From assembly GCA_037893245.1 (NCBI GenBank), contig JBAIAA010001114.1, positions 266,029 through 330,028 of the forward strand: a DNA stretch of 64,000 nt. Direction: 5' to 3'. Positions 1 to 62,363 of this stretch are shown here, piece after piece. The notes beneath the pieces were generated by a model. It was not told the DNA's origin and did no database searches. It saw only the letters and a list, made by a program, of their open reading frames with translations. The stretch is from Crossaster papposus (taxonomy: Eukaryota > Echinodermata > Asteroidea > Velatida > Solasteridae). The translations under genes and the position numbers were made by a program. Numbering within the stretch: the stretch's first letter is position 1; every line of letters begins with the position of its first letter.

Positions 1-130
1 TATTTTGGTAGCTGGGGGGAAATTAATTTGCTTGCAAAGTATCATGTACTCGTGGGTAATATTGACCGTATTGTTTCGGAGGGTAAATAAGTTGTGATCA
101 GTGAAGCGTCTCGGCATGGTGTCCGAATTA

Positions 131-221
131 CCAAATTGGAAGACTGCCCTTTGTTAGACTTCAGCCCGAGGATGCTATTCTCTAGTCTTAAGAGACGGCC
201 TGTTCGTTGATTTGGCATTCA
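131..221 (+). promoter_or_regulatory. H3 promoter (unit 1; repeated in every unit)
   Basis: CCAAATTGG at 131-139 gives an inverted CCAAT (ATTGG). No good TATA box is present; CTTAAGA at about 187 is the best candidate at the right distance. The likely cap site is CATTCA at 216-221, close to the histone cap consensus PyCATTCPu. The leader is about 47 nt. In other units the same elements lie at the same distance from the H3 ATG. Confidence 0.6.
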
Positions 222-245
222 CTTCTTATCTACTCTTCAATCTGA

Positions 246-674
<429 letters not shown>

Positions 675-705
675 GTCAAAGCTGTGTGCGCAAAACAAAC
701 CGAAC

Positions 706-721
706 GGCCCTTTTCAGGGCC
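706..721 (+). terminator. Histone mRNA 3' stem-loop, H3 unit 1
   Basis: GGCCCTTTTCAGGGCC forms a 6-bp stem with a 4-nt loop, 31 nt past the stop. It is the SLBP-binding processing signal of replication-dependent histone mRNA. AAAGAGAG at 733-740 matches the purine-rich element that pairs with U7 snRNA. This H3 form has C-G where H2B and H4 have T-A at the fourth pair. Confidence 0.97.
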
Positions 722-839
722 AAAACTTTTTTAAAGAGAGATTAATTCCAATAGCGTTTTCTGTAGAGTTTGGAAAGTTAAATGCGGTTACTATTGGTGA
801 ATACGAATTTTAACTGGCCAGGGTTCCGGAGAACGGATT

Positions 840-845
840 AATAAA
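840..845 (+). promoter_or_regulatory. AATAAA downstream of H3 stem-loop
   Basis: AATAAA 118 bp past the H3 stem-loop. It may act as a backup polyadenylation signal when stem-loop processing fails, as described for some insect histone genes. Present in every unit. Confidence 0.4.
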
Positions 846-1156
846 ATCATCAAGATTAGTCTCTATCCATTTTGTTTATTGATCTGTATCCTGGTTTTAG
901 TTGTCTCCCCCCTATTTCTTTTACTTTTAATTCTGTAAAAAAAAAAGAGGTAATTTCCTGGCCATGTACACAATTGTTTATGCAGTCGTTTTGTGTCATA
1001 TTTTCGAAAACGGAAACTCTTCGTTACATTGGATGGCACGCAAGTTTCCCCTGCGTTTGGGGCAAAACAAATAATGTGTAAAACCACACCGGATTGTTGA
1101 CGTTTACCGAATATAATAAATAATTGTATTATTATTATTATTGTTATTATTAATTG

Positions 1157-1268
1157 TTTGTTTGTTTGTTTGTTTGTTTGTTTGTTTGTTTGTTTGTTTG
1201 TTTGTTTGTTTGTTTGTTTGTTTGTTTGTTTGTTTGTTTGTTTGTTTGTTTGTTTGTTTGTTTGTTTG
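1157..1268 (+). repeat. (TTTG)28 microsatellite, unit 1
   Basis: 28 perfect copies, preceded by an ATT-rich run and ending TTTC, about 135 bp upstream of the H2B TATA box. It is the main source of length variation between units. Confidence 0.97.
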
Positions 1269-1402
1269 TTTCTTGGTTTTCATTCGGAGAGATGGCTTTT
1301 GCCTTCAGTGCTAATGCGTGTCACTTTGCACGCGTACAGATTTCTTTACGCTTGGGTGATTGTGTGGACAATGCGTGTATGCCCAGAATCCTATCGTGTG
1401 CC

Positions 1403-1438
1403 ATAAAAGTCGTCCCGGCATTTTTGACCTTCCATTCG
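1403..1438 (+). promoter_or_regulatory. H2B core promoter (unit 1; repeated in every unit)
   Basis: ATAAAAG at 1403-1409 is a good TATA-type box. CCATTCG at 1432-1438 fits the histone cap consensus PyCATTCPu, about 30 bp downstream. The leader is about 39 nt. No octamer ATTTGCAT was found here, although it is typical of vertebrate H2B promoters; the only octamer in the unit is beside U2. Confidence 0.75.
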
Positions 1439-1472
1439 ATCGCACGATCACATACACTCATCAACTCCAATC

Positions 1473-1841
1473 ATGGCTCCTAAAGTTAGCGGAAAAGGCC
1501 AGAAGAAGGCAGGCAACACCAAGGCTCCGGTCAGCATAAACAAGAAGAGGCGCCGGCGTCGCAAGGAGAGCTACGGCATCTACATCTACAAAGTCATGAA
1601 ACAGGTGCACCCCGACACAGGAATCTCAAGCAAGGCAATGAGCATCATGAACAGCTTTGTCAACGACGTGTTTGAGCGCATCGCCGGGGAATCTTCTCGC
1701 CTTGCCCACTACAACAAGAAGTCGACCATCTCAAGTCGTGAAGTGCAGACTGCAGTACGTCTTATCCTCCCGGGAGAGCTTGCCAAGCATGCAGTCAGCG
1801 AAGGGACCAAGGCCGTCACCAAGTATACTACTTCAAAATAG
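1473..1841 (+). CDS. H2B: Histone H2B, unit 1
   Basis: Core histone H2B, 122 residues; it dimerises with H2A. A lysine-rich tail (residues 1-23) precedes a basic stretch, KKRRRRRK at 24-31, equivalent to the H2B repression patch that crosses the DNA gyres. The histone fold starts at about ESYGIYIYK (32-40). The C-terminus AVTKYTTSK holds the conserved ubiquitinated lysine (K117 here with Met, K120 in human numbering). The start is supported by a TATA-like ATAAAAG at 1403 and a CCATTCG cap motif at 1432, 41 bp before the ATG. No intron. A stem-loop lies at 1887. The protein is the same in all ten units. Confidence 0.98.
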
Positions 1842-1886
1842 GGTGACCGAGAAGAAAAAAAACCACGAAAAACATAATAACCAAAC

Positions 1887-1902
1887 GGCTCTTTTCAGAG
1901 CC
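1887..1902 (+). terminator. Histone mRNA 3' stem-loop, H2B unit 1
   Basis: GGCTCTTTTCAGAGCC, the standard metazoan form with ACACA-like flank, 45 nt past the stop. Downstream element AAAAAAGAGA at 1914-1923. Confidence 0.97.
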
Positions 1903-2381
1903 AACACAATTTTAAAAAAGAGATGTGACTGTCCAATTTGTGTTACTAATTCAGTCAATGTTCGTAGGTTTCACAACCGTTCGGGTAGTGTTCCCGTCTT
2001 TACAACCCCCCTGACCTTAAAAGGAGAAAAGAAGATCAACATTGACATTCTGTTCTCGTCGCCTTTGAAAACAAATATGTGACTTGAAAAGGCATGACGG
2101 GGAAAAGTATTTCGGTAGTATTTGGAGTTCTATTGTTTTACACACTTGTAAATGGCGATTCGTTAGCTTTCCAATGATACCAAAAGTAGTTATGTACATC
2201 ATTTAATTACAATGATATATACCACAGCAGGGCTGACAGTGCGCCGCCCAACTTTAGCGATCGAATTTTTAAAACCAAAATATCGCTTTGACCAAAACAA
2301 TTATACGCGTGCCCGCCAACAACGAAATTGACAAATGGGGGTCATTGTTCAATAAGCCTCAGTAAGTCACGTAAGAATTTC

Positions 2382-2391
2382 AAATGGCGGC
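2382..2391 (+). promoter_or_regulatory. YY1-like motif
   Basis: AAATGGCGGC resembles the YY1/Pho element (ATGGCGGC core), which often lies at transcription starts. It is 127 bp upstream of the splice-site-bounded segment in the H2B-H2A spacer. The ATG inside it opens a 55-codon frame ending at 2551 that resembles nothing I know. Confidence 0.3.
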
Positions 2392-2517
2392 ACGGCCTTT
2401 TGTTATTCAGCACCTGTGCGCGCACTGGTTTCAGTTCATTCAGTCTCCATTACGAGAAGTAGTGGTTTCTTGTTTGATGTATGTTAAATATAAGTGTTTG
2501 TCATTATCTCCGTGCAG

Positions 2518-2640
2518 ACAAATCCGTGACAGTTTTCAATGCGGTATATGACGGCCGATCTGCGGCCAGCGTGGGGGCAGGTCAATCGGTAGGCAACAGG
2601 GACACTCCGTCGGGATTACAGAAATCGTCTGAGAAAGCAG
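2518..2640 (+). other. Candidate internal exon (phase 1-1, 123 nt)
   Basis: The segment follows a fair 3' splice site (CATTATCTCCGTGCAG) and precedes a strong 5' splice site (AAAGCAG|GTAAGC). Its 123 nt are a multiple of three, and exactly one + frame is open across it; the other two hit TGA. The open frame enters and leaves in phase 1 and encodes a polar peptide beginning DKSVTVFNAVYDG. No partner exon was found in the unit, and the peptide is not recognised. It recurs at 8844, 15168, 21492, 27817, 34138, 40458, 46790, 53086 and 59393. It could be a captured exon, a non-coding RNA exon or chance. Confidence 0.35.
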
Positions 2641-2797
2641 GTAAGCTTTTTGGGTGCTTTGGGTTTTTGCTGTTATGATTTCATCGCTTAGATTGAAGAC
2701 AGACAGACAGACCTCGTTCAAAAAATGTATCTCTGTTTCCACGCATCAAAAAAATGGATGCGGTGCACTCAACCGTACAGTCAGTGTGTCGCGCGTG

Positions 2798-2876
2798 ATT
2801 GGCTACTTGGCGTGCTTCGGCCAATCCACCGGAACGCTATAACTAGTGCCGTCACCCCCCTCGTACGGCACTTTCA
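2798..2876 (+). promoter_or_regulatory. H2A promoter (unit 1; repeated in every unit)
   Basis: Two CCAAT boxes in opposite orientation, ATTGG at 2798-2802 and CCAAT at 2821-2825, precede TATAAC at 2838-2843. The start is probably near CACTTTCA (2869-2876), about 30 bp downstream. The leader is about 45 nt. Confidence 0.75.
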
Positions 2877-2913
2877 CTGCAGATCGCAATCTACTGCCAC
2901 CAACTACTTCAAG

Positions 2914-3291
2914 ATGACTGGACGAGGAAAGAGCGGAAAAGCAAGAAGCAAGGCCAGGAGCAGGTCCTCAAGGGCGGGACTGCAGTTCCCCGTGGGTCGT
3001 GTTCATCGATTTTTGCGAAGGGGCAACTACGCTGAGCGGGTTGGAGCCGGTGCACCGGTCTACCTGGCAGCCGTGATGGAATACCTGACCGCCGAGATCC
3101 TGGAGCTGGCCGGTAACGCAGCACGAGATAATAAGAAGACGAGAATTAACCCTCGACACCTGCAGCTTGCTATACGCAACGACGAAGAGCTTAACAAGTT
3201 GATGAGTGGAGTTACCATCGCGCAAGGCGGTGTGCTTCCCAACATCCAGCAAGTACTTCTGCCCAAAAAGACCGCCAAAGTATCAAAGTAA
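2914..3291 (+). CDS. H2A: Histone H2A (canonical), unit 1
   Basis: Core histone H2A, 125 residues. The reading frame is open further upstream, but the TATA (2838) and CCAAT boxes lie in that extension, so MTGRGK at 2914 is the start. The tail is [19 protein letters not shown] and the fold begins at [13 protein letters not shown]. The acidic patch that binds nucleosome regulators is intact: E56, E61, E64, D90, E91 and E92 (counted with Met). The C-terminal PKKT holds the usual ubiquitination lysines. There is no SQ end, so it is not H2A.X. Unusual positions are Asn79 in RINPRHLQ (normally Ile) and a second Gln in PNIQQVLL (normally Ala). Intronless, with its own promoter and a stem-loop at 3331. 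The protein is the same in all ten units. Confidence 0.98.
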
Positions 3292-3330
3292 TACAAACAA
3301 ATTACTTGGCCTCCATATACAAAAACAAAA

Positions 3331-3346
3331 GGCTCTTTTCAGGGCC
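3331..3346 (+). terminator. Histone mRNA 3' stem-loop, H2A unit 1
   Basis: GGCTCTTTTCAGGGCC: the fourth pair is a U-G wobble, unlike the other three genes. ACCACA follows the stem. Downstream element AAGAGAGAAA at 3360-3369. Confidence 0.96.
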
Positions 3347-3398
3347 ACCACATAATTACAAGAGAGAAACGCCGCTGTCTGTCTGTTCTTCATTTTTA

Positions 3399-3404
3399 AA
3401 TAAA
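3399..3404 (+). promoter_or_regulatory. AATAAA downstream of H2A stem-loop
   Basis: AATAAA 52 bp past the H2A stem-loop, a backup polyadenylation candidate. No equivalent was seen after H2B or H4. Confidence 0.4.
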
Positions 3405-3526
3405 GTTTTAAAAGAGACAAAGTTAGATATTACATTTGTAGATTTTCAATAACTTTTTACTTACACGGCCATTTACATTTTCCACTTTTATTTACACTTT
3501 CACAGCCAAAGGCCCGCTGGGTTTGT

Positions 3527-3582
3527 CCAATAGCTTCGTTTATTTTGTAAAGAATCGCCTTCTCTTTTTCTGCTTATAAAAA
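3527..3582 (+). promoter_or_regulatory. Orphan CCAAT/TATA promoter in the H2A-U2 spacer
   Basis: CCAAT at 3527-3531 and TATAAAAA at 3575-3582 are spaced like a Pol II promoter, but no open frame or RNA gene follows for 1.2 kb. It could be the relic of a lost fifth histone gene such as H1, or drive a non-coding transcript. Unit 2 equivalent: 9853-9908. Confidence 0.45.
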
Positions 3583-3749
3583 CATTGAGAAAGTGTTTGT
3601 TTTCATCCTCGCGCGGGTGTGTTTTAACGTGTATCCAGGTGACATTATTATGAAACTAGCTCATTAAATATGCAACGCGCGCACTGTGACTTCAACAAAG
3701 CAAAAGAAATACGCGCTGTGTCTGTACTCTATATATACACGTACTACGC

Positions 3750-3763
3750 GTACTGTACAGTAC
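3750..3763. repeat. 14-bp perfect palindrome
   Basis: GTACTGTACAGTAC is a perfect palindrome inside a stretch of overlapping short palindromes (ACGCGT before, ATGCAT after), just past a TATATATA run. Role unknown. Present in every unit (10077-10090 in unit 2). Confidence 0.6.
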
Positions 3764-4446
3764 ATGCATGTTCAGTTTGTAAAAGTACGTGAATGATATT
3801 ATACCCGTGACCCAGCACATCAAAATCAAGAATAAGTCGGAAAATGACTTTCACAGATATAAATATAATAAGATGGGAAATTCAAGAAGCTTTGTAATGA
3901 CATCCATCACAAGCCTTTAGCTCGGAAATTATTGGTTACGAGTTACAGACTAGGGATGGGTATCATTAGAAAGCCTATGGAATTTCAAATGTTACTATGT
4001 ACATAACGCGAATTGTCATTTCCCGCTTATTAGTGATTTTGATATCCTGGGTCACATTTTCATGGATTTAACAAAAACATTGGAAATGTGGTGAGTTGAC
4101 ACTTCGCGTGTGGTCTATTAGCTTTGTTCTCGTGTTCCGTTTTACCTGGGCCCAATGTCGTAACAAATGTAAGCACACCAATTTGCTTAGCACGAAACAT
4201 TTTTCCTTGGCCAAACTGTCGTTTCCAAAAATGTCTGAAGATTTCCGAACACGTTTTTGTTGACGGTCGGGTATTATCGTTAACGTTCGCGACTACAATT
4301 TCGACGTCTGGGTGTACACAATTAAATGGTCAGGCCATGGAACCAGACTATTTTCACCGCCCCCCAAAGTGGGACATTTAGGTTCTGCTTGAAAACAAAT
4401 AAACCGGCCTGAACGGTAAACGATCGAGGCGCGGTTGTGCCGAAGG

Positions 4447-4460
4447 GCGCCATCTATCGG
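4447..4460 (-). promoter_or_regulatory. CTCF-like motif upstream of U2
   Basis: On the minus strand this reads CCGATAGATGGCGC, matching 12 of 14 positions of the CTCF core CCASYAGRKGGCRS and close to the AGATGGCGC form seen in insects. It lies 410 bp before U2 in every unit (10771-10784 in unit 2). Confidence 0.45.
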
Positions 4461-4808
4461 CGCGCTCGTACCGGGTAGGTCGGTGTAATTACAGCGGCGA
4501 GGCGCGGTGCAGCATGGCGATAAATAAGTATACCACTCGCATTTTTCAGATTTTCAAGCGACTTTTGGTTAAAAAAATGAATTTCGTAAAAGATATTGTC
4601 GATGGTGTATGAAAATGTGTTATGAAAAACCCCCAAGATCATGAATATTGATGTAAATAACGTGCCAAAAGTTGGTAATTTCTCTAAACGGGTTTTTTCG
4701 GGTTTGCGTCGGGCTCTGTGAGGAGTCCTTGTATTGATCCCAAATACACAAATTAGAAAAAGTAAAAAATGAATATTATTCGGATGAGAACAATGGTCGG
4801 GGGAATAA

Positions 4809-4856
4809 ATTTGCATACATAATTCCAGAGCGCCTATTGGTTCAATATCAATCGTT
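4809..4856 (+). promoter_or_regulatory. U2 snRNA proximal promoter (unit 1)
   Basis: A perfect octamer ATTTGCAT at 4809-4816 lies 48 bp before the U2 start (49 bp in units 2-10). It falls where the PSE is expected, not at the usual distal position near -220. An inverted CCAAT (ATTGG, 4836-4840) follows. No PSE could be recognised with confidence. Confidence 0.55.
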
Positions 4857-5047
4857 ATCGCTTCTCGGCCTTTTGGCTAAGATCATGTGTAGTATCTGTT
4901 CTTTTCAGCTTAATATCTGAAACGCTGTTCATCGAACAGCCAGTATATTAATCTGATTTTTGGATTTGGGCCGTGGAATAGAGGCTTGCCTCGTCCGGCC
5001 CATGGGTTGGCCCGGTATAGCAGTACATCCGGGACTTCGGCCCACTC
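4857..5047 (+). ncRNA. U2: U2 spliceosomal snRNA, unit 1 (variant copy)
   Basis: U2 snRNA, about 191 nt; it pairs with the intron branch site during spliceosome assembly. The 5' end ATCGCTTCTCGGCCTTTTGG is essentially invariant in animals, and GTGTAGTATC contains the branch-site-pairing GTAGTA. Stem IIb (GCTGTTC/GAACAGC), the Sm site ATTTTTGG, stem III (GAGGC/GCCTC) and the stem-loop IV region (CCCGG, GCAGTAC, CCGGG) follow in order. This copy differs from the other nine in the stem III-IV linker (CCGGCCC instead of CCCGGCC) and by an extra C near 5035. Whether these are real variants or sequence errors is unclear. The exact 3' end is approximate. Confidence 0.9.
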
Positions 5048-5480
5048 CCCTCGGGGAACATCAAATAATACAAAAACAGGTCTCGTCTATGTGTATTCCT
5101 AGTCGCATCACTTTTACAAGTTCTTTCTTCGCTTTACTTCGGGCTTTCGTATATTTAAACATTCTCAATACGTCTAAAGTAAATAATTGTATGAAGACCG
5201 ATCTCTTTGTTTTTGGATGATTTCTGATGAAGGAGAAAAACAACAACAAAAACAAACAGGCCCTCTGCGTCTGGTTGTATATTTATTTGACGACGATGTA
5301 TTAGATTTTCTTTATTTTTTCCCAATTTTTTTTAATTCATATGATTTCACATAATTGTAGACTTTAGATTTGCTTTTTGTTTGTGGTCTTGTTTTAACTC
5401 TATTTTTGTTTGAAATACTGTATAGGTAATAATGCAGGGCCGTTTTGGATAGCATTTTTGTTGTAAGTGATAAAACCTCA

Positions 5481-6087
<607 letters not shown>

Positions 6088-6118
6088 ATGCATGCTACAT
6101 GCAATTTTCAAACCAAAC

Positions 6119-6134
6119 GGCTCTTTTCAGAGCC
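6119..6134 (+). terminator. Histone mRNA 3' stem-loop, H4 unit 1
   Basis: GGCTCTTTTCAGAGCC followed by ACCACG, 31 nt past the stop. Downstream element AAAAAGAGA at 6148-6156. Confidence 0.97.
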
Positions 6135-6176
6135 ACCACGATTTCACAAAAAGAGATTGATTCCAGGTTTTTATTT

Positions 6177-6196
6177 GTGTGTGTGTGTGTGTGTGT
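6177..6196 (+). repeat. (GT)10 run downstream of H4
   Basis: Ten GT copies about 20 bp past the H4 downstream element. Unlike TTTG, the copy number is the same in the units I counted (1, 2 and 7). Confidence 0.9.
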
Positions 6197-6575
6197 ACTC
6201 TGTTATTATTTTAGCATTGTCTCAGGATTCAGTGTGGATTTTCCTCCCAGTGTCTATTAAGTTTTCCCTTTTCGTTTATTGCCCGTAATTATTTGTGGGA
6301 TGTCTTTGTCGAAGACACGGCCCTTTTGTTTATTTTGGTAGCTGGGGGGAAATTAATTTGCTTGCAAAGTATCATGTACTCGTGGGTAATATTGACCGTA
6401 TTGTTTCGGAGGGTAAATAAGTTGTGATCAGTGAAGCGTCTCGGCATGGTGTCCGAATTACCAAATTGGAAGACTGCCCTTTGTTAGACTTCAGCCCGAG
6501 GATGCTATTCTCTAGTCTTAAGAGACGGCCTGTTCGTTGATTTGGCATTCACTTCTTATCTACTCTTCAATCTGA

Positions 6576-7004
<429 letters not shown>

Positions 7005-7035
7005 GTCAAAGCTGTGTGCGCAAAACAAACCGAAC

Positions 7036-7051
7036 GGCCCTTTTCAGGGCC
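7036..7051 (+). terminator. Histone stem-loop, H3 unit 2
   Basis: Same 16-nt element and spacing as H3 of unit 1. Confidence 0.97.
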
Positions 7052-7486
7052 AAAACTTTTTTAAAGAGAGATTAATTCCAATAGCGTTTTCTGTAGAGTT
7101 TGGAAAGTTAAATGCGGTTACTATTGGTGAATACGAATTTTAACTGGCCAGGGTTCCGGAGAACGGATTAATAAAATCATCAAGATTAGTCTCTATCCAT
7201 TTTGTTTATTGATCTGTATCCTGGTTTTAGTTGTCTCCCCCCTATTTCTTTTACTTTTAATTCTGTAAAAAAAAAAGAGGTAATTTCCTGGCCATGTACA
7301 CAATTGTTTATGCAGTCGTTTTGTGTCATATTTTCGAAAACGGAAACTCTTCGTTACATTGGATGGCACGCAAGTTTCCCCTGCGTTTGGGGCAAAACAA
7401 ATAATGTGTAAAACCACACCGGATTGTTGACGTTTACCGAATATAATAAATAATTGTATTATTATTATTATTGTTATTATTAATTG

Positions 7487-7594
7487 TTTGTTTGTTTGTT
7501 TGTTTGTTTGTTTGTTTGTTTGTTTGTTTGTTTGTTTGTTTGTTTGTTTGTTTGTTTGTTTGTTTGTTTGTTTGTTTGTTTGTTTGTTTGTTTG
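7487..7594 (+). repeat. (TTTG)27 microsatellite, unit 2
   Basis: 27 perfect copies, the modal length. Confidence 0.97.
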
Positions 7595-7798
7595 TTTCTT
7601 GGTTTTCATTCGGAGAGATGGCTTTTGCCTTCAGTGCTAATGCGTGTCACTTTGCACGCGTACAGATTTCTTTACGCTTGGGTGATTGTGTGGACAATGC
7701 GTGTATGCCCAGAATCCTATCGTGTGCCATAAAAGTCGTCCCGGCATTTTTGACCTTCCATTCGATCGCACGATCACATACACTCATCAACTCCAATC

Positions 7799-8167
7799 AT
7801 GGCTCCTAAAGTTAGCGGAAAAGGCCAGAAGAAGGCAGGCAACACCAAGGCTCCGGTCAGCATAAACAAGAAGAGGCGCCGGCGTCGCAAGGAGAGCTAC
7901 GGCATCTACATCTACAAAGTCATGAAACAGGTGCACCCCGACACAGGAATCTCAAGCAAGGCAATGAGCATCATGAACAGCTTTGTCAACGACGTGTTTG
8001 AGCGCATCGCCGGGGAATCTTCTCGCCTTGCCCACTACAACAAGAAGTCGACCATCTCAAGTCGTGAAGTGCAGACTGCAGTACGTCTTATCCTCCCGGG
8101 AGAGCTTGCCAAGCATGCAGTCAGCGAAGGGACCAAGGCCGTCACCAAGTATACTACTTCAAAATAG
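7799..8167 (+). CDS. H2B: Histone H2B, unit 2
   Basis: 122 residues, identical to unit 1. Its promoter lies downstream of a 27-copy TTTG tract. Confidence 0.98.
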
Positions 8168-8212
8168 GGTGACCGAGAAGAAAAAAAACCACGAAAAACA
8201 TAATAACCAAAC

Positions 8213-8228
8213 GGCTCTTTTCAGAGCC
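8213..8228 (+). terminator. Histone stem-loop, H2B unit 2
   Basis: Same element and spacing as H2B of unit 1. Confidence 0.97.
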
Positions 8229-9239
8229 AACACAATTTTAAAAAAGAGATGTGACTGTCCAATTTGTGTTACTAATTCAGTCAATGTTCGTAGGTTTCAC
8301 AACCGTTCGGGTAGTGTTCCCGTCTTTACAACCCCCCTGACCTTAAAAGGAGAAAAGAAGATCAACATTGACATTCTGTTCTCGTCGCCTTTGAAAACAA
8401 ATATGTGACTTGAAAAGGCATGACGGGGAAAAGTATTTCGGTAGTATTTGGAGTTCTATTGTTTTACACACTTGTAAATGGCGATTCGTTAGCTTTCCAA
8501 TGATACCAAAAGTAGTTATGTACATCATTTAATTACAATGATATATACCACAGCAGGGCTGACAGTGCGCCGCCCAACTTTAGCGATCGAATTTTTAAAA
8601 CCAAAATATCGCTTTGACCAAAACAATTATACGCGTGCCCGCCAACAACGAAATTGACAAATGGGGGTCATTGTTCAATAAGCCTCAGTAAGTCACGTAA
8701 GAATTTCAAATGGCGGCACGGCCTTTTGTTATTCAGCACCTGTGCGCGCACTGGTTTCAGTTCATTCAGTCTCCATTACGAGAAGTAGTGGTTTCTTGTT
8801 TGATGTATGTTAAATATATGTGTTTGTCATTATCTCCGTGCAGACAAATCCGTGACAGTTTTCAATGCGGTATATGACGGCCGATCTGCGGCCAGCGTGG
8901 GGGCAGGTCAATCGGTAGGCAACAGGGACACTCCGTCGGGATTACAGAAATCGTCTGAGAAAGCAGGTAAGCTTTTTGGGTGCTTTGGGTTTTTGCTGTT
9001 ATGATTTCATCGCTTAGATTGAAGACAGACAGACAGACCTCGTTCAAAAAATGTATCTCTGTTTCCACGCATCAAAAAAATGGATGCGGTGCACTCAACC
9101 GTACAGTCAGTGTGTCGCGCGTGATTGGCTACTTGGCGTGCTTCGGCCAATCCACCGGAACGCTATAACTAGTGCCGTCACCCCCCTCGTACGGCACTTT
9201 CACTGCAGATCGCAATCTACTGCCACCAACTACTTCAAG

Positions 9240-9617
9240 ATGACTGGACGAGGAAAGAGCGGAAAAGCAAGAAGCAAGGCCAGGAGCAGGTCCTCAAGGG
9301 CGGGACTGCAGTTCCCCGTGGGTCGTGTTCATCGATTTTTGCGAAGGGGCAACTACGCTGAGCGGGTTGGAGCCGGTGCACCGGTCTACCTGGCAGCCGT
9401 GATGGAATACCTGACCGCCGAGATCCTGGAGCTGGCCGGTAACGCAGCACGAGATAATAAGAAGACGAGAATTAACCCTCGACACCTGCAGCTTGCTATA
9501 CGCAACGACGAAGAGCTTAACAAGTTGATGAGTGGAGTTACCATCGCGCAAGGCGGTGTGCTTCCCAACATCCAGCAAGTACTTCTGCCCAAAAAGACCG
9601 CCAAAGTATCAAAGTAA
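9240..9617 (+). CDS. H2A: Histone H2A, unit 2
   Basis: 125 residues, identical to unit 1, including Asn79 and the QQ pair. Confidence 0.98.
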
Positions 9618-9656
9618 TACAAACAAATTACTTGGCCTCCATATACAAAAACAAAA

Positions 9657-9672
9657 GGCTCTTTTCAGGGCC
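9657..9672 (+). terminator. Histone stem-loop, H2A unit 2
   Basis: Same wobble-containing element as H2A of unit 1. Confidence 0.96.
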
Positions 9673-11180
9673 ACCACATAATTACAAGAGAGAAACGCCG
9701 CTGTCTGTCTGTTCTTCATTTTTAAATAAAGTTTTAAAAGAGACAAAGTTAGATATTACATTTGTAGATTTTCAATAACTTTTTACTTACACGGCCATTT
9801 ACATTTTCCACTTTTATTTACACTTTCACAGCCAAAGGCCCGCTGGGTTTGTCCAATAGCTTCGTTTATTTTGTAAAGAATCGCCTTCTCTTTTTCTGCT
9901 TATAAAAACATTGAGAAAGTGTTTGTTTTCATCCTCGCGCGGGTGTGTTTTAACGTGTATCCAGGTGACATTATTATGAAACTAGCTCATTAAATATGCA
10001 ACGCGCGCACTGTGACTTCAACAAAGCAAAAAGAAATACGCGCTGTGTCTGTACTCTATATATACACGTACTACGCGTACTGTACAGTACATGCATGTTC
10101 AGTTTGTAAAAGTACGTGAATGATATTATACCCGTGACCCAGCACATCAAAATCAAGAATAAGTCGGAAAATGACTTTCACAGATATAAATATAATAAGA
10201 TGGGAAATTCAAGAAGCTTTGTAATGACATCCATCACAAGCCTTTAGCTCGGAAATTATTGGTTACGAGTTACAGACTAGGGATGGGTATCATTAGAAAG
10301 CCTATGGAATTTCAAATGTTACTATGTACATAACGCGAATTGTCATTTCCCGCTTATTAGTGATTTTGATATCCTGGGTCACATTTTCATGGATTTAACA
10401 AAAACATTGGAAATGTGGTGAGTTGACACTTCGCGTGTGGTCTATTAGCTTTGTTCTCGTGTTCCGTTTTACCTGGGCCCAATTTCGTAACAAATGTAAG
10501 CACACCAATTTGCTTAGCACGAAACATTTTCCTTGGCCAAACTGTCGTTTCCAAAAATGTCTGAAGATTTCCGAACACGTTTTGTTGACGGTCGGGTATT
10601 ATCGTTAACGTTCGCGACTACAATTTCGACGTCTGGGTGTACACAATTAAATGGTCAGGCCATGGAACCAGACTATTTTCACCGCCCCCAAAGTGGGACA
10701 TTTAGGTTCTGCTTGAAAACAAATAAACCGGCCTGAACGGTAAACGATCGAGGCGCGGTTGTGCCGAAGGGCGCCATCTATCGGCGCGCTCGTACCGGTA
10801 GGTCGGTGTAATTACAGCGGCGAGGCGCGGTGCAGCATGGCGATAATTATGATACCACTCGCATTTTTTCAGATTTTCAAGCGACTTTTGGTTAAAAAAA
10901 TGAATTTGTAAAAGAATATTGTCGATGTGTATGAAAATGTGTTATGAAAAACCCCCAAGATCATGAATATTGATGTAAATTAACGTGCCAAAAGTTGGTA
11001 ATTTCTCTAAACGGGTTTTTTCGGGTTTGCGTCGGGCTCTGTGAGGAGTCCTTGTATTGATCCCAAATACACAAATTAGAAAAAGTAAAAAATGAATATT
11101 ATTCGGATGAGAACAATGGTCGGGGGAATAAATTTGCATACATAATTCCAGAGCGCCCTATTGGTTCAATATCAATCGTT

Positions 11181-11370
11181 ATCGCTTCTCGGCCTTTTGG
11201 CTAAGATCATGTGTAGTATCTGTTCTTTTCAGCTTAATATCTGAAACGCTGTTCATCGAACAGCCAGTATATTAATCTGATTTTTGGATTTGGGCCGTGG
11301 AATAGAGGCTTGCCTCGTCCCGGCCATGGGTTGGCCCGGTATAGCAGTACATCCGGGATTCGGCCCACTC
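11181..11370 (+). ncRNA. U2: U2 spliceosomal snRNA, unit 2 (majority form)
   Basis: About 190 nt and the reference form for this array. Relative to human U2, stem IIa has a paired change: TTCAG/CTGAA here against ATCAG/CTGAT, which keeps base pairing and argues for function. An octamer motif ATTTGCAT sits at -49 (11132). A short hairpin CCCC-TC-GGGG follows the probable 3' end. No clear vertebrate-type 3' box was found; A-rich AAAAACAGG about 25 nt downstream is a weak candidate. Confidence 0.94.
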
Positions 11371-11814
11371 CCCTCGGGGAACATCAAATAATACAAAAAC
11401 AGGTCTCGTCTATGTGTATTCCTATGTCGCATCACTTTTACAAGTTCTTTCTTCGCTTTACTTCGGGGCTTTCGTATATTTAAACATTTCAATACGTCTA
11501 AAGTAAATAATTGTATGAAGACCGATCTCTTTGTTTTTGGATGATTTCTGATGAAGGAGAAAAACAACAACAAAAACAAACAGGCCCTCTGCGTCTGGTT
11601 GTATATTTATTTGACGACGATGTATTAGATTTTCTTTATTTTTTCCCAATTTTTTTTAATTCATATGATTTCACATAATTGTAGACTTTAGATTTGCTTT
11701 TTGTTTGTGGTCTTGTTTTAACTCTATTTTTGTTTGAAATACTGTATAGGTAATAATGCAGGGCCGTTTTGGATAGCATTTTTGTTGTAAGTGATAAAAC
11801 CTCAAATAAAATAA

Positions 11815-12411
<597 letters not shown>

Positions 12412-12442
12412 ATGCATGCTACATGCAATTTTCAAACCAAAC

Positions 12443-12458
12443 GGCTCTTTTCAGAGCC
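12443..12458 (+). terminator. Histone stem-loop, H4 unit 2
   Basis: Same element and spacing as H4 of unit 1. Confidence 0.97.
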
Positions 12459-12899
12459 ACCACGATTTCACAAAAAGAGATTGATTCCAGGTTTTTATTT
12501 GTGTGTGTGTGTGTGTGTGTACTCTGTTATTATTTTAGCATTGTCTCAGGATTCAGTGTGGATTTTCCTCCCAGTGTCTATTAAGTTTTCCCTTTTCGTT
12601 TATTGCCCGTAATTATTTGTGGGATGTCTTTGTCGAAGACACGGCCCTTTTGTTTATTTTGGTAGCTGGGGGGAAATTAATTTGCTTGCAAAGTATCATG
12701 TACTCGTGGGTAATATTGACCGTATTGTTTCGGAGGGTAAATAAGTTGTGATCAGTGAAGCGTCTCGGCATGGTGTCCGAATTACCAAATTGGAAGACTG
12801 CCCTTTGTTAGACTTCAGCCCGAGGATGCTATTCTCTAGTCTTAAGAGACGGCCTGTTCGTTGATTTGGCATTCACTTCTTATCTACTCTTCAATCTGA

Positions 12900-13328
<429 letters not shown>

Positions 13329-17504: not shown

Positions 17505-17694
17505 ATCGCTTCTCGGCCTTTTGGCTAAGATCATGTGTAGTATCTGTTCTTTTCAGCTTAATATCTGAAACGCTGTTCATCGAACAGCCAGTATATTAAT
17601 CTGATTTTTGGATTTGGGCCGTGGAATAGAGGCTTGCCTCGTCCCGGCCATGGGTTGGCCCGGTATAGCAGTACATCCGGGATTCGGCCCACTC
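17505..17694 (+). ncRNA. U2: U2 spliceosomal snRNA, unit 3
   Basis: Reads as the same sequence as the unit 2 copy, with intact GTAGTA and Sm site. Confidence 0.94.
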
Positions 17695-18138
17695 CCCTCG
17701 GGGAACATCAAATAATACAAAAACAGGTCTCGTCTATGTGTATTCCTATGTCGCATCACTTTTACAAGTTCTTTCTTCGCTTTACTTCGGGGCTTTCGTA
17801 TATTTAAACATTTCAATACGTCTAAAGTAAATAATTGTATGAAGACCGATCTCTTTGTTTTTGGATGATTTCTGATGAAGGAGAAAAACAACAACAAAAA
17901 CAAACAGGCCCTCTGCGTCTGGTTGTATATTTATTTGACGACGATGTATTAGATTTTCTTTATTTTTTCCCAATTTTTTTTAATTCATATGATTTCACAT
18001 AATTGTAGACTTTAGATTTGCTTTTTGTTTGTGGTCTTGTTTTAACTCTATTTTTGTTTGAAATACTGTATAGGTAATAATGCAGGGCCGTTTTGGATAG
18101 CATTTTTGTTGTAAGTGATAAAACCTCAAATAAAATAA

Positions 18139-23829: not shown

Positions 23830-24019
23830 ATCGCTTCTCGGCCTTTTGGCTAAGATCATGTGTAGTATCTGTTCTTTTCAGCTTAATATCTGAAACGCTG
23901 TTCATCGAACAGCCAGTATATTAATCTGATTTTTGGATTTGGGCCGTGGAATAGAGGCTTGCCTCGTCCCGGCCATGGGTTGGCCCGGTATAGCAGTACA
24001 TCCGGGATTCGGCCCACTC
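23830..24019 (+). ncRNA. U2: U2 spliceosomal snRNA, unit 4
   Basis: Reads as the same sequence as the unit 2 copy. Confidence 0.94.
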
Positions 24020-24463
24020 CCCTCGGGGAACATCAAATAATACAAAAACAGGTCTCGTCTATGTGTATTCCTATGTCGCATCACTTTTACAAGTTCTTTC
24101 TTCGCTTTACTTCGGGGCTTTCGTATATTTAAACATTTCAATACGTCTAAAGTAAATAATTGTATGAAGACCGATCTCTTTGTTTTTGGATGATTTCTGA
24201 TGAAGGAGAAAAACAACAACAAAAACAAACAGGCCCTCTGCGTCTGGTTGTATATTTATTTGACGACGATGTATTAGATTTTCTTTATTTTTTCCCAATT
24301 TTTTTTAATTCATATGATTTCACATAATTGTAGACTTTAGATTTGCTTTTTGTTTGTGGTCTTGTTTTAACTCTATTTTTGTTTGAAATACTGTATAGGT
24401 AATAATGCAGGGCCGTTTTGGATAGCATTTTTGTTGTAAGTGATAAAACCTCAAATAAAATAA

Positions 24464-30153: not shown

Positions 30154-30343
30154 ATCGCTTCTCGGCCTTTTGGCTAAGATCATGTGTAGTATCTGTTCTT
30201 TTCAGCTTAATATCTGAAACGCTGTTCATCGAACAGCCAGTATATTAATCTGATTTTTGGATTTGGGCCGTGGAATAGAGGCTTGCCTCGTCCCGGCCAT
30301 GGGTTGGCCCGGTATAGCAGTACATCCGGGATTCGGCCCACTC
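30154..30343 (+). ncRNA. U2: U2 spliceosomal snRNA, unit 5
   Basis: Reads as the same sequence as the unit 2 copy. Confidence 0.94.
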
Positions 30344-30787
30344 CCCTCGGGGAACATCAAATAATACAAAAACAGGTCTCGTCTATGTGTATTCCTATGT
30401 CGCATCACTTTTACAAGTTCTTTCTTCGCTTTACTTCGGGGCTTTCGTATATTTAAACATTTCAATACGTCTAAAGTAAATAATTGTATGAAGACCGATC
30501 TCTTTGTTTTTGGATGATTTCTGATGAAGGAGAAAAACAACAACAAAAACAAACAGGCCCTCTGCGTCTGGTTGTATATTTATTTGACGACGATGTATTA
30601 GATTTTCTTTATTTTTTCCCAATTTTTTTTAATTCATATGATTTCACATAATTGTAGACTTTAGATTTGCTTTTTGTTTGTGGTCTTGTTTTAACTCTAT
30701 TTTTGTTTGAAATACTGTATAGGTAATAATGCAGGGCCGTTTTGGATAGCATTTTTGTTGTAAGTGATAAAACCTCAAATAAAATAA

Positions 30788-36474: not shown

Positions 36475-36664
36475 ATCGCTTCTCGGCCTTTTGGCTAAGA
36501 TCATGTGTAGTATCTGTTCTTTTCAGCTTAATATCTGAAACGCTGTTCATCGAACAGCCAGTATATTAATCTGATTTTTGGATTTGGGCCGTGGAATAGA
36601 GGCTTGCCTCGTCCCGGCCATGGGTTGGCCCGGTATAGCAGTACATCCGGGATTCGGCCCACTC
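36475..36664 (+). ncRNA. U2: U2 spliceosomal snRNA, unit 6
   Basis: Reads as the same sequence as the unit 2 copy. Confidence 0.94.
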
Positions 36665-37108
36665 CCCTCGGGGAACATCAAATAATACAAAAACAGGTCT
36701 CGTCTATGTGTATTCCTATGTCGCATCACTTTTACAAGTTCTTTCTTCGCTTTACTTCGGGGCTTTCGTATATTTAAACATTTCAATACGTCTAAAGTAA
36801 ATAATTGTATGAAGACCGATCTCTTTGTTTTTGGATGATTTCTGATGAAGGAGAAAAACAACAACAAAAACAAACAGGCCCTCTGCGTCTGGTTGTATAT
36901 TTATTTGACGACGATGTATTAGATTTTCTTTATTTTTTCCCAATTTTTTTTAATTCATATGATTTCACATAATTGTAGACTTTAGATTTGCTTTTTGTTT
37001 GTGGTCTTGTTTTAACTCTATTTTTGTTTGAAATACTGTATAGGTAATAATGCAGGGCCGTTTTGGATAGCATTTTTGTTGTAAGTGATAAAACCTCAAA
37101 TAAAATAA

Positions 37109-42794: not shown

Positions 42795-42984
42795 ATCGCT
42801 TCTCGGCCTTTTGGCTAAGATCATGTGTAGTATCTGTTCTTTTCAGCTTAATATCTGAAACGCTGTTCATCGAACAGCCAGTATATTAATCTGATTTTTG
42901 GATTTGGGCCGTGGAATAGAGGCTTGCCTCGTCCCGGCCATGGGTTGGCCCGGTATAGCAGTACATCCGGGATTCGGCCCACTC
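42795..42984 (+). ncRNA. U2: U2 spliceosomal snRNA, unit 7
   Basis: Reads as the same sequence as the unit 2 copy. Confidence 0.94.
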
Positions 42985-43428
42985 CCCTCGGGGAACATCA
43001 AATAATACAAAAACAGGTCTCGTCTATGTGTATTCCTATGTCGCATCACTTTTACAAGTTCTTTCTTCGCTTTACTTCGGGGCTTTCGTATATTTAAACA
43101 TTTCAATACGTCTAAAGTAAATAATTGTATGAAGACCGATCTCTTTGTTTTTGGATGATTTCTGATGAAGGAGAAAAACAACAACAAAAACAAACAGGCC
43201 CTCTGCGTCTGGTTGTATATTTATTTGACGACGATGTATTAGATTTTCTTTATTTTTTCCCAATTTTTTTTAATTCATATGATTTCACATAATTGTAGAC
43301 TTTAGATTTGCTTTTTGTTTGTGGTCTTGTTTTAACTCTATTTTTGTTTGAAATACTGTATAGGTAATAATGCAGGGCCGTTTTGGATAGCATTTTTGTT
43401 GTAAGTGATAAAACCTCAAATAAAATAA

Positions 43429-49126: not shown

Positions 49127-49316
49127 ATCGCTTCTCGGCCTTTTGGCTAAGATCATGTGTAGTATCTGTTCTTTTCAGCTTAATATCTGAAACGCTGTTC
49201 ATCGAACAGCCAGTATATTAATCTGATTTTTGGATTTGGGCCGTGGAATAGAGGCTTGCCTCGTCCCGGCCATGGGTTGGCCCGGTATAGCAGTACATCC
49301 GGGATTCGGCCCACTC
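49127..49316 (+). ncRNA. U2: U2 spliceosomal snRNA, unit 8
   Basis: Reads as the same sequence as the unit 2 copy. Confidence 0.94.
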
Positions 49317-49760
49317 CCCTCGGGGAACATCAAATAATACAAAAACAGGTCTCGTCTATGTGTATTCCTATGTCGCATCACTTTTACAAGTTCTTTCTTC
49401 GCTTTACTTCGGGGCTTTCGTATATTTAAACATTTCAATACGTCTAAAGTAAATAATTGTATGAAGACCGATCTCTTTGTTTTTGGATGATTTCTGATGA
49501 AGGAGAAAAACAACAACAAAAACAAACAGGCCCTCTGCGTCTGGTTGTATATTTATTTGACGACGATGTATTAGATTTTCTTTATTTTTTCCCAATTTTT
49601 TTTAATTCATATGATTTCACATAATTGTAGACTTTAGATTTGCTTTTTGTTTGTGGTCTTGTTTTAACTCTATTTTTGTTTGAAATACTGTATAGGTAAT
49701 AATGCAGGGCCGTTTTGGATAGCATTTTTGTTGTAAGTGATAAAACCTCAAATAAAATAA

Positions 49761-55422: not shown

Positions 55423-55612
55423 ATCGCTTCTCGGCCTTTTGGCTAAGATCATGTGTAGTATCTGTTCTTTTCAGCTTAATATCTGAAACGCTGTTCATCG
55501 AACAGCCAGTATATTAATCTGATTTTTGGATTTGGGCCGTGGAATAGAGGCTTGCCTCGTCCCGGCCATGGGTTGGCCCGGTATAGCAGTACATCCGGGA
55601 TTCGGCCCACTC
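55423..55612 (+). ncRNA. U2: U2 spliceosomal snRNA, unit 9
   Basis: Reads as the same sequence as the unit 2 copy. Confidence 0.94.
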
Positions 55613-56056
55613 CCCTCGGGGAACATCAAATAATACAAAAACAGGTCTCGTCTATGTGTATTCCTATGTCGCATCACTTTTACAAGTTCTTTCTTCGCTT
55701 TACTTCGGGGCTTTCGTATATTTAAACATTTCAATACGTCTAAAGTAAATAATTGTATGAAGACCGATCTCTTTGTTTTTGGATGATTTCTGATGAAGGA
55801 GAAAAACAACAACAAAAACAAACAGGCCCTCTGCGTCTGGTTGTATATTTATTTGACGACGATGTATTAGATTTTCTTTATTTTTTCCCAATTTTTTTTA
55901 ATTCATATGATTTCACATAATTGTAGACTTTAGATTTGCTTTTTGTTTGTGGTCTTGTTTTAACTCTATTTTTGTTTGAAATACTGTATAGGTAATAATG
56001 CAGGGCCGTTTTGGATAGCATTTTTGTTGTAAGTGATAAAACCTCAAATAAAATAA

Positions 56057-61729: not shown

Positions 61730-61919
61730 ATCGCTTCTCGGCCTTTTGGCTAAGATCATGTGTAGTATCTGTTCTTTTCAGCTTAATATCTGAAACGCTG
61801 TTCATCGAACAGCCAGTATATTAATCTGATTTTTGGATTTGGGCCGTGGAATAGAGGCTTGCCTCGTCCCGGCCATGGGTTGGCCCGGTATAGCAGTACA
61901 TCCGGGATTCGGCCCACTC
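61730..61919 (+). ncRNA. U2: U2 spliceosomal snRNA, unit 10
   Basis: Reads as the same sequence as the unit 2 copy. The T-to-A change at 61557 is 173 bp upstream and outside the octamer. Confidence 0.94.
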
Positions 61920-62363
61920 CCCTCGGGGAACATCAAATAATACAAAAACAGGTCTCGTCTATGTGTATTCCTATGTCGCATCACTTTTACAAGTTCTTTC
62001 TTCGCTTTACTTCGGGGCTTTCGTATATTTAAACATTTCAATACGTCTAAAGTAAATAATTGTATGAAGACCGATCTCTTTGTTTTTGGATGATTTCTGA
62101 TGAAGGAGAAAAACAACAACAAAAACAAACAGGCCCTCTGCGTCTGGTTGTATATTTATTTGACGACGATGTATTAGATTTTCTTTATTTTTTCCCAATT
62201 TTTTTTAATTCATATGATTTCACATAATTGTAGACTTTAGATTTGCTTTTTGTTTGTGGTCTTGTTTTAACTCTATTTTTGTTTGAAATACTGTATAGGT
62301 AATAATGCAGGGCCGTTTTGGATAGCATTTTTGTTGTAAGTGATAAAACCTCAAATAAAATAA

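Follow-up and report, generated by a model that had tools for sequence, protein, structure and literature searches.

The whole stretch of DNA analysed here, a window of 64 kb, lies entirely inside a single tandem array of core-histone genes that includes ten complete units and part of an eleventh, and a full-length U2 snRNA sequence is present between H2A and H4, on the histone strand, in each of the ten complete units. This arrangement seems to be best explained by a functional U2 gene, with a promoter that is probably its own, which would have become established in the H2A–H4 spacer of an animal core-histone array and spread to every unit, a reading to which a probability of about 0.72 can be attached. 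According to this explanation, the gene would first have landed in the spacer of one unit, and unequal exchange together with gene conversion would then have taken it to all of them. Each copy would probably have an snRNA-type promoter and be transcribed from it, independently of any histone transcript, and the array would produce spliceosomal U2. The initial annotation had placed U2 between H2A and H4 on one strand in all ten complete units and had described the histone array as being also a U2 array; both descriptions hold, since the combination of an Rfam cmscan search and an ORF map finds one U2 per complete unit (10/10).

The order of genes in each unit is H3>H2B>H2A>U2>H4, every gene being on the + strand, and the ten complete units measure 6,295–6,332 bp from one H3 start to the next. 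No core-histone ORF is broken, either among the 40 of these units or in the H3 of the partial eleventh, and a Q>L substitution is found in one of the 11 H3 copies. In unit 2, the H3, H2B, and H2A products score above the cut-off of the Pfam core-histone model; the H4 product reaches 23.2 against a cut-off of 26.4 on that model and passes three other histone-fold models. In all ten units, H2B, H2A, and H4 are each followed by a stem-loop that exceeds the Rfam cut-off (30/30), and a purine-rich stretch is located downstream of all four stem-loops in unit 2, the unit examined in this respect. Uninterrupted ORFs, 3' stem-loops, and a purine-rich downstream element are the features of a replication-dependent core-histone repeat, and the stem-loops with their downstream elements are consistent with an animal source. 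The H2A sequence (2914-3291) contains RINPRH and PNIQQV, which we take to be unusual residues at otherwise conserved places, and presumably resembles echinoderm forms.

The remainder of the unit was also searched for other genes. Rfam gives no above-cut-off match to U1 or 5S in the window and none in unit 2 at E values up to 5, and no tRNA is detected in positions 1-13000; within these ranges, U1, 5S, and tRNA genes are ruled out as components of the unit. Weak matches of unit 2 to KRAS_3UTR, ceN65, and U6 are far under their respective cut-offs and were taken as chance, and no H1-like frame of at least 60 aa is seen when unit 2 is read by eye. The H2B–H2A spacer harbours a 123-nt exon-like stretch (2518-2640) at the same place in the ten units (e.g., 8844-8966), flanked by gtgcag and gtaagc and contained within an open frame (8804-9001) that has no Pfam match.

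Over the whole window, cmscan returns ten matches to the U2 family (RF00004), all on the + strand and all covering the complete model (1-192 of 192). Nine copies score 182.3 bits (E 1.1e-38) and that of unit 1 scores 171.5 bits (E 4.4e-36), values so far beyond the gathering score of 46 bits that chance is excluded. The U2 copies of units 2-10 are identical (9/9, 193 nt), as had been read initially, and the unit-1 copy, of 194 nt, differs from them in 3 alignment columns. The copy cited in the initial annotation is precisely this deviant one among the ten; its start at 4857 was placed correctly, whereas its end, given as 5047, lies at 5050 according to the model. The positions of the features are collected in Table 1.

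Table 1. Positions of histone, U2, and associated elements in the window, numbered from its first nucleotide.
Feature	Unit	Position	Strand	Evidence or remark
Histone H3 ORF	1	264..674	+	Intact ORF; Pfam Histone (unit-2 copy)
H3 ORF starts	beyond 1	6594, 12918, 19242, 25567, 31891, 38212, 44532, 50864, 57159, 63467	+	
Histone H2B ORF (1 per unit)	1	1473..1841	+	Intact ORF; Pfam Histone (unit-2 copy)
Histone 3' stem-loop, H2B	1	1882..1927	+	RF00032, 37.3 bits (cut-off 34)
Histone H2A ORF (1 per unit)	1	2914..3291	+	Intact ORF; Pfam Histone, Histone_H2A_C (unit-2 copy)
Histone 3' stem-loop, H2A	1	3326..3371	+	RF00032, 34.2 bits
ATTTGCAT octamer	1	4809-4816		Starts at -48 of U2
U2 (194 nt)	1	4857..5050	+	RF00004, 171.5 bits
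Histone H4 ORF (1 per unit)	1	5776..6087	+	Intact ORF; 96% identity to H4 of JAOZOU010000036.1
Histone 3' stem-loop, H4	1	6114..6159	+	RF00032, 39.6 bits
Histone 3' stem-loop, H3	2	7031..7076	+	RF00032, 32.9 bits, under the curated cut-off of 34
ATTTGCAT octamer	2	11132..11139	+	Starts at -49 of U2; candidate role
U2 (reference copy, 193 nt)	2	11181..11373	+	RF00004, 182.3 bits; copy used for the stem-pair count
U2	3	17505..17697	+	RF00004, 182.3 bits
U2	4	23830..24022	+	RF00004, 182.3 bits
U2	5	30154..30346	+	RF00004, 182.3 bits
U2	6	36475..36667	+	RF00004, 182.3 bits
U2	7	42795..42987	+	RF00004, 182.3 bits
U2	8	49127..49319	+	RF00004, 182.3 bits
U2	9	55423..55615	+	RF00004, 182.3 bits
U2	10	61730..61922	+	RF00004, 182.3 bits

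From its predicted RNA structure, the array form looks like a working U2. Its 45 stem pairs (units 2-10), read against the printed Rfam consensus with weakly conserved letters included, comprise 30 that are unchanged, 12 in which both sides have changed and pairing is kept, one changed on a single side, and two that are non-standard, 43/45 being standard; the paired stem changes reported initially are, therefore, real relative to that consensus. When the differing letters were re-dealt among the differing positions in 20,000 shuffles, the mean number of non-standard pairs was 8.6, against the 2 actually present, and a fraction of only 0.00025 of the shuffles did as well. Moreover, when folded freely, the RNA is more stable than its composition would predict (z -2.77), 1/200 shuffles being equally stable. 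In the unit-2 copy, to which the eight other 182.3-bit copies are identical, both the branch-site pairing motif of U2 (GUAGUA in the RNA, GTAGTA here, position 33) and its Sm site (ATTTTTGG, position 100) are intact. Stem IIb of the array form reads GCUGUUC/GAACAGC. Stem III of the unit-1 copy shows poorer pairing in the register of the model and folds in a shifted register.

The identity of the copies in units 2-10 had also been put forward as a sign of function, and this part of the earlier argument fails, since the spacers are equally near-identical. Thus, units 2 and 3 show 0 differences over 6,324 bp, and units 2-10 together have just 6 variable columns in 6.3 kb, with the TTTG microsatellite left out, a rate at which 193 nt would hold about 0.2 changes even without any selection. 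With near-identity extending over entire units and their spacers, any 193-nt stretch of spacer would look unchanged, and copy identity is uninformative on function and was rejected as evidence for it. The arguments that do bear on function, and on which that claim can still stand, are the compensated stems, the stability of the fold, and the intact GTAGTA and ATTTTTGG motifs. The near-identity of the units could in part come from the assembly. The TTTG microsatellite (7484-7605, 30.5 copies in unit 2) varies in length among units, and the length differences within the array are mostly due to it.

Unit 1 departs from the rest in 25 private columns, the microsatellite again left out, of which 23 fall within 1.1 kb containing its U2, 14 are single-base indels, and 3 lie inside the U2 itself. 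The private differences are located at about 2500-5150 of the window, and the odd 1.1-kb patch is possibly an unpolished stretch of assembly or a sequencing error, or else a divergent patch. That these private differences do not avoid U2 (3/25), together with the score of the unit-1 U2, which is 10.8 bits lower than that of the other copies, counts against the explanation preferred here.

It is likely that U2 has a promoter of its own. The octamer ATTTGCAT is located upstream of U2 in 10/10 units and is absent elsewhere in the window; the expectation by chance under a Markov model is 0.0064 per 100 nt, for a motif that was picked after looking. This word resembles, we assume, the octamer of vertebrate snRNA enhancers, which in vertebrates is a distal element. 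The 100 nt that precede the U2 of unit 2 contain neither TATAAA nor TATATA, and no proximal promoter element was identified for U2. Furthermore, the promoter words common to U2 and the four histone genes are limited to one 9-mer, where the null expectation averages 5.3, and a promoter module common to both kinds of gene was rejected on this basis. The lack of common words favours a separate U2 promoter and speaks against co-regulation via shared elements, and it is in combination with the octamer and the lack of TATA words that it makes an independent promoter likely. With regard to the 3' side, no snRNA 3' box stands out, since 44/158 spacer windows match its core equally well, and the proposal of a recognisable box was discarded.

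The presence of U2 within a tandem histone repeat is an already-known kind of linkage, because it has been published for Hydractinia (PMC5011920, PMC10197650) and is also seen in a database contig, but the layout described here is new. The accessible part of the report on Hydractinia echinata describes a tandem repeat of similar size, about 6 kb (5,998 bp), which likewise contains U2, 3' stem-loops, and purine-rich downstream elements, and whose snRNAs are transcribed; however, that unit also includes H1, U1, 5S rRNA, and an Arg-tRNA (PMC5011920), none of which was found here. The array thus shares with the Hydractinia-type repeat a U2 in every unit (10/10), but not the additional H1, U1, 5S, and tRNA genes. 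In Hydractinia symbiolongicarpus, according to the part of the paper available, U2 is also placed among histone genes, in arrays that are interspersed with U1 and 5S as well; measurements there show the histone genes becoming active early in embryogenesis, and that part gives no timing for U2 (PMC10197650).

The contig in question (JAOZOU010000036.1) is a 5.6-kb eukaryotic sequence filed in a bacterial bin, for which a hydrozoan origin would be an inference. It carries 5S, U1, and U2 (Rfam), H4 (tblastn), and H1-, H3-, H2A-, and H2B-like ORFs (by eye). It resembles the present array in that its 5.6 kb combine core-histone genes with a full-length U2, the two U2 sequences being identical at 143/194 aligned positions, and differs from it in its H1-like ORF, its U1 and 5S genes, the distribution of genes on both strands, and a divergent U1/U2 pair about 200 bp apart. 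No terminal overlap, which would be a sign of tandem repetition, was found in it. In comparison with both Hydractinia and this contig, the array described here is distinguished by having U2 as the sole snRNA found, with no H1 detected in unit 2, and by keeping all genes on one strand.

Other searches added little to this picture. Of 181 candidates from an H4 search of genome contigs, 2 were confirmed, namely the contig above and a second one (JAAXJP010000450.1; 3.1 kb, bacterial bin), which has a partial eukaryotic H4 at its edge and no U2 match. Viral contigs contained 0 U2 core patterns, 53 stretches matching the H4 pattern of which 0 were confirmed, and 11 H3 candidates of which 1 was confirmed, a distant locus (L003) with 43% identity. 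In the literature, as far as the available parts of the papers go, the 5S-U1-U2 repeat of Acropora pruinosa likewise joins snRNA genes to another tandem gene family, but its core-histone locus is on a separate chromosome pair (PMC8167085), and U2-5S and H3 are on different chromosomes in Favites pentagona (PMC9005458). Within the parts covered, histone-U2 linkage does not appear in the papers on Lepidoptera (PMC8190105) and Xenopus (PMC10361878), nor in that on zebrafish, where maternal U1 and U6 genes accompany 5S and tRNA genes on chromosome 4 (PMC11075544); the portion available for annelids describes varied histone orders, and the word snRNA is absent from it (PMC12153100). No core-histone repeat with U2 as its sole snRNA was found among the titles and passages covered in the open-access literature.

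Some other explanations have to be weighed against the one favoured here. U2 might have been retained in the histone unit because a joint supply or a shared nuclear body helps histone expression. In the parts of the papers available, the U7-dependent formation of histone 3' ends is reported to be assisted by U2 snRNP (PMC9133132, citing Friend et al. 2007), a role of U2 snRNP is proposed for the Hydractinia linkage (PMC5011920), and HeLa cells show clustering of snRNA loci and histone loci at Cajal bodies (PMC4802181); moreover, the histone-U2 linkage recurs in JAOZOU010000036.1, and U2 is the only snRNA found in the present array. However, U2 and the histone genes have no promoter words in common beyond chance, and the presence of U1 and 5S in both Hydractinia and that contig, with a tRNA in the former, points to a non-specific accumulation of repeated genes. 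The location of histones and U2-5S on different chromosomes in Acropora pruinosa and Favites pentagona, in the portions available (PMC8167085, PMC9005458), also argues against such a selected association. This proposal, which overlaps the preferred explanation and does not exclude it, seems unlikely. A bolder version, in which U2 alone would have been captured independently in a lineage distant from hydrozoans, the array would be the main or only source of U2, and the coupling of U2 and histone supply would be convergent, is similarly doubtful; if true, it would fit the reported role of U2 in histone mRNA 3'-end formation and the bulk demand of early embryos.

The array copies could also be passengers, that is, former or weak genes carried along by the histone repeat, the working U2 genes being elsewhere. 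Homogenisation of the units would hold dead copies identical too, the snRNA 3' box is not distinct, and the unit-1 U2 has its 3 private changes. Nevertheless, a U2 with 43/45 standard stem pairs and 12 double changes is far from decay, its branch-site and Sm motifs are intact, and array snRNAs are transcribed in the parallel case of Hydractinia, in the part of that study available (PMC5011920), all of which makes the passenger proposal quite improbable. Finally, a misassembly that joined U2 to the histone repeat and was then copied, as the identity of units 2 and 3 over 6,324 bp and the indel-rich patch around the unit-1 U2 might suggest, is hardly credible, given that the same U2 junctions are present in 10/10 units, that the units vary in microsatellite length and private changes, and that similar linkage has been published and is present in JAOZOU010000036.1.

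A functional U2 gene spread through the histone array would match the gene dosage of U2 to that of the core histones, which could plausibly serve oogenesis, cleavage, or similar stages of high demand. Like histone mRNAs, U2 is produced in large amounts and lacks a poly(A) tail. In human cells, snRNA and histone loci gather at Cajal and histone-locus bodies, according to the available parts of two reports (PMC4802181, PMC9133132), and, by analogy with that work, a nuclear body shared by the histone and U2 genes of this array is plausible. The fused histone-U2 array would offer a natural test of whether the two gene types have a nuclear body, timing, or dosage control in common, and a version with U2 only, without U1 and 5S, may help to separate U2-specific explanations from a general collecting of repeated genes.
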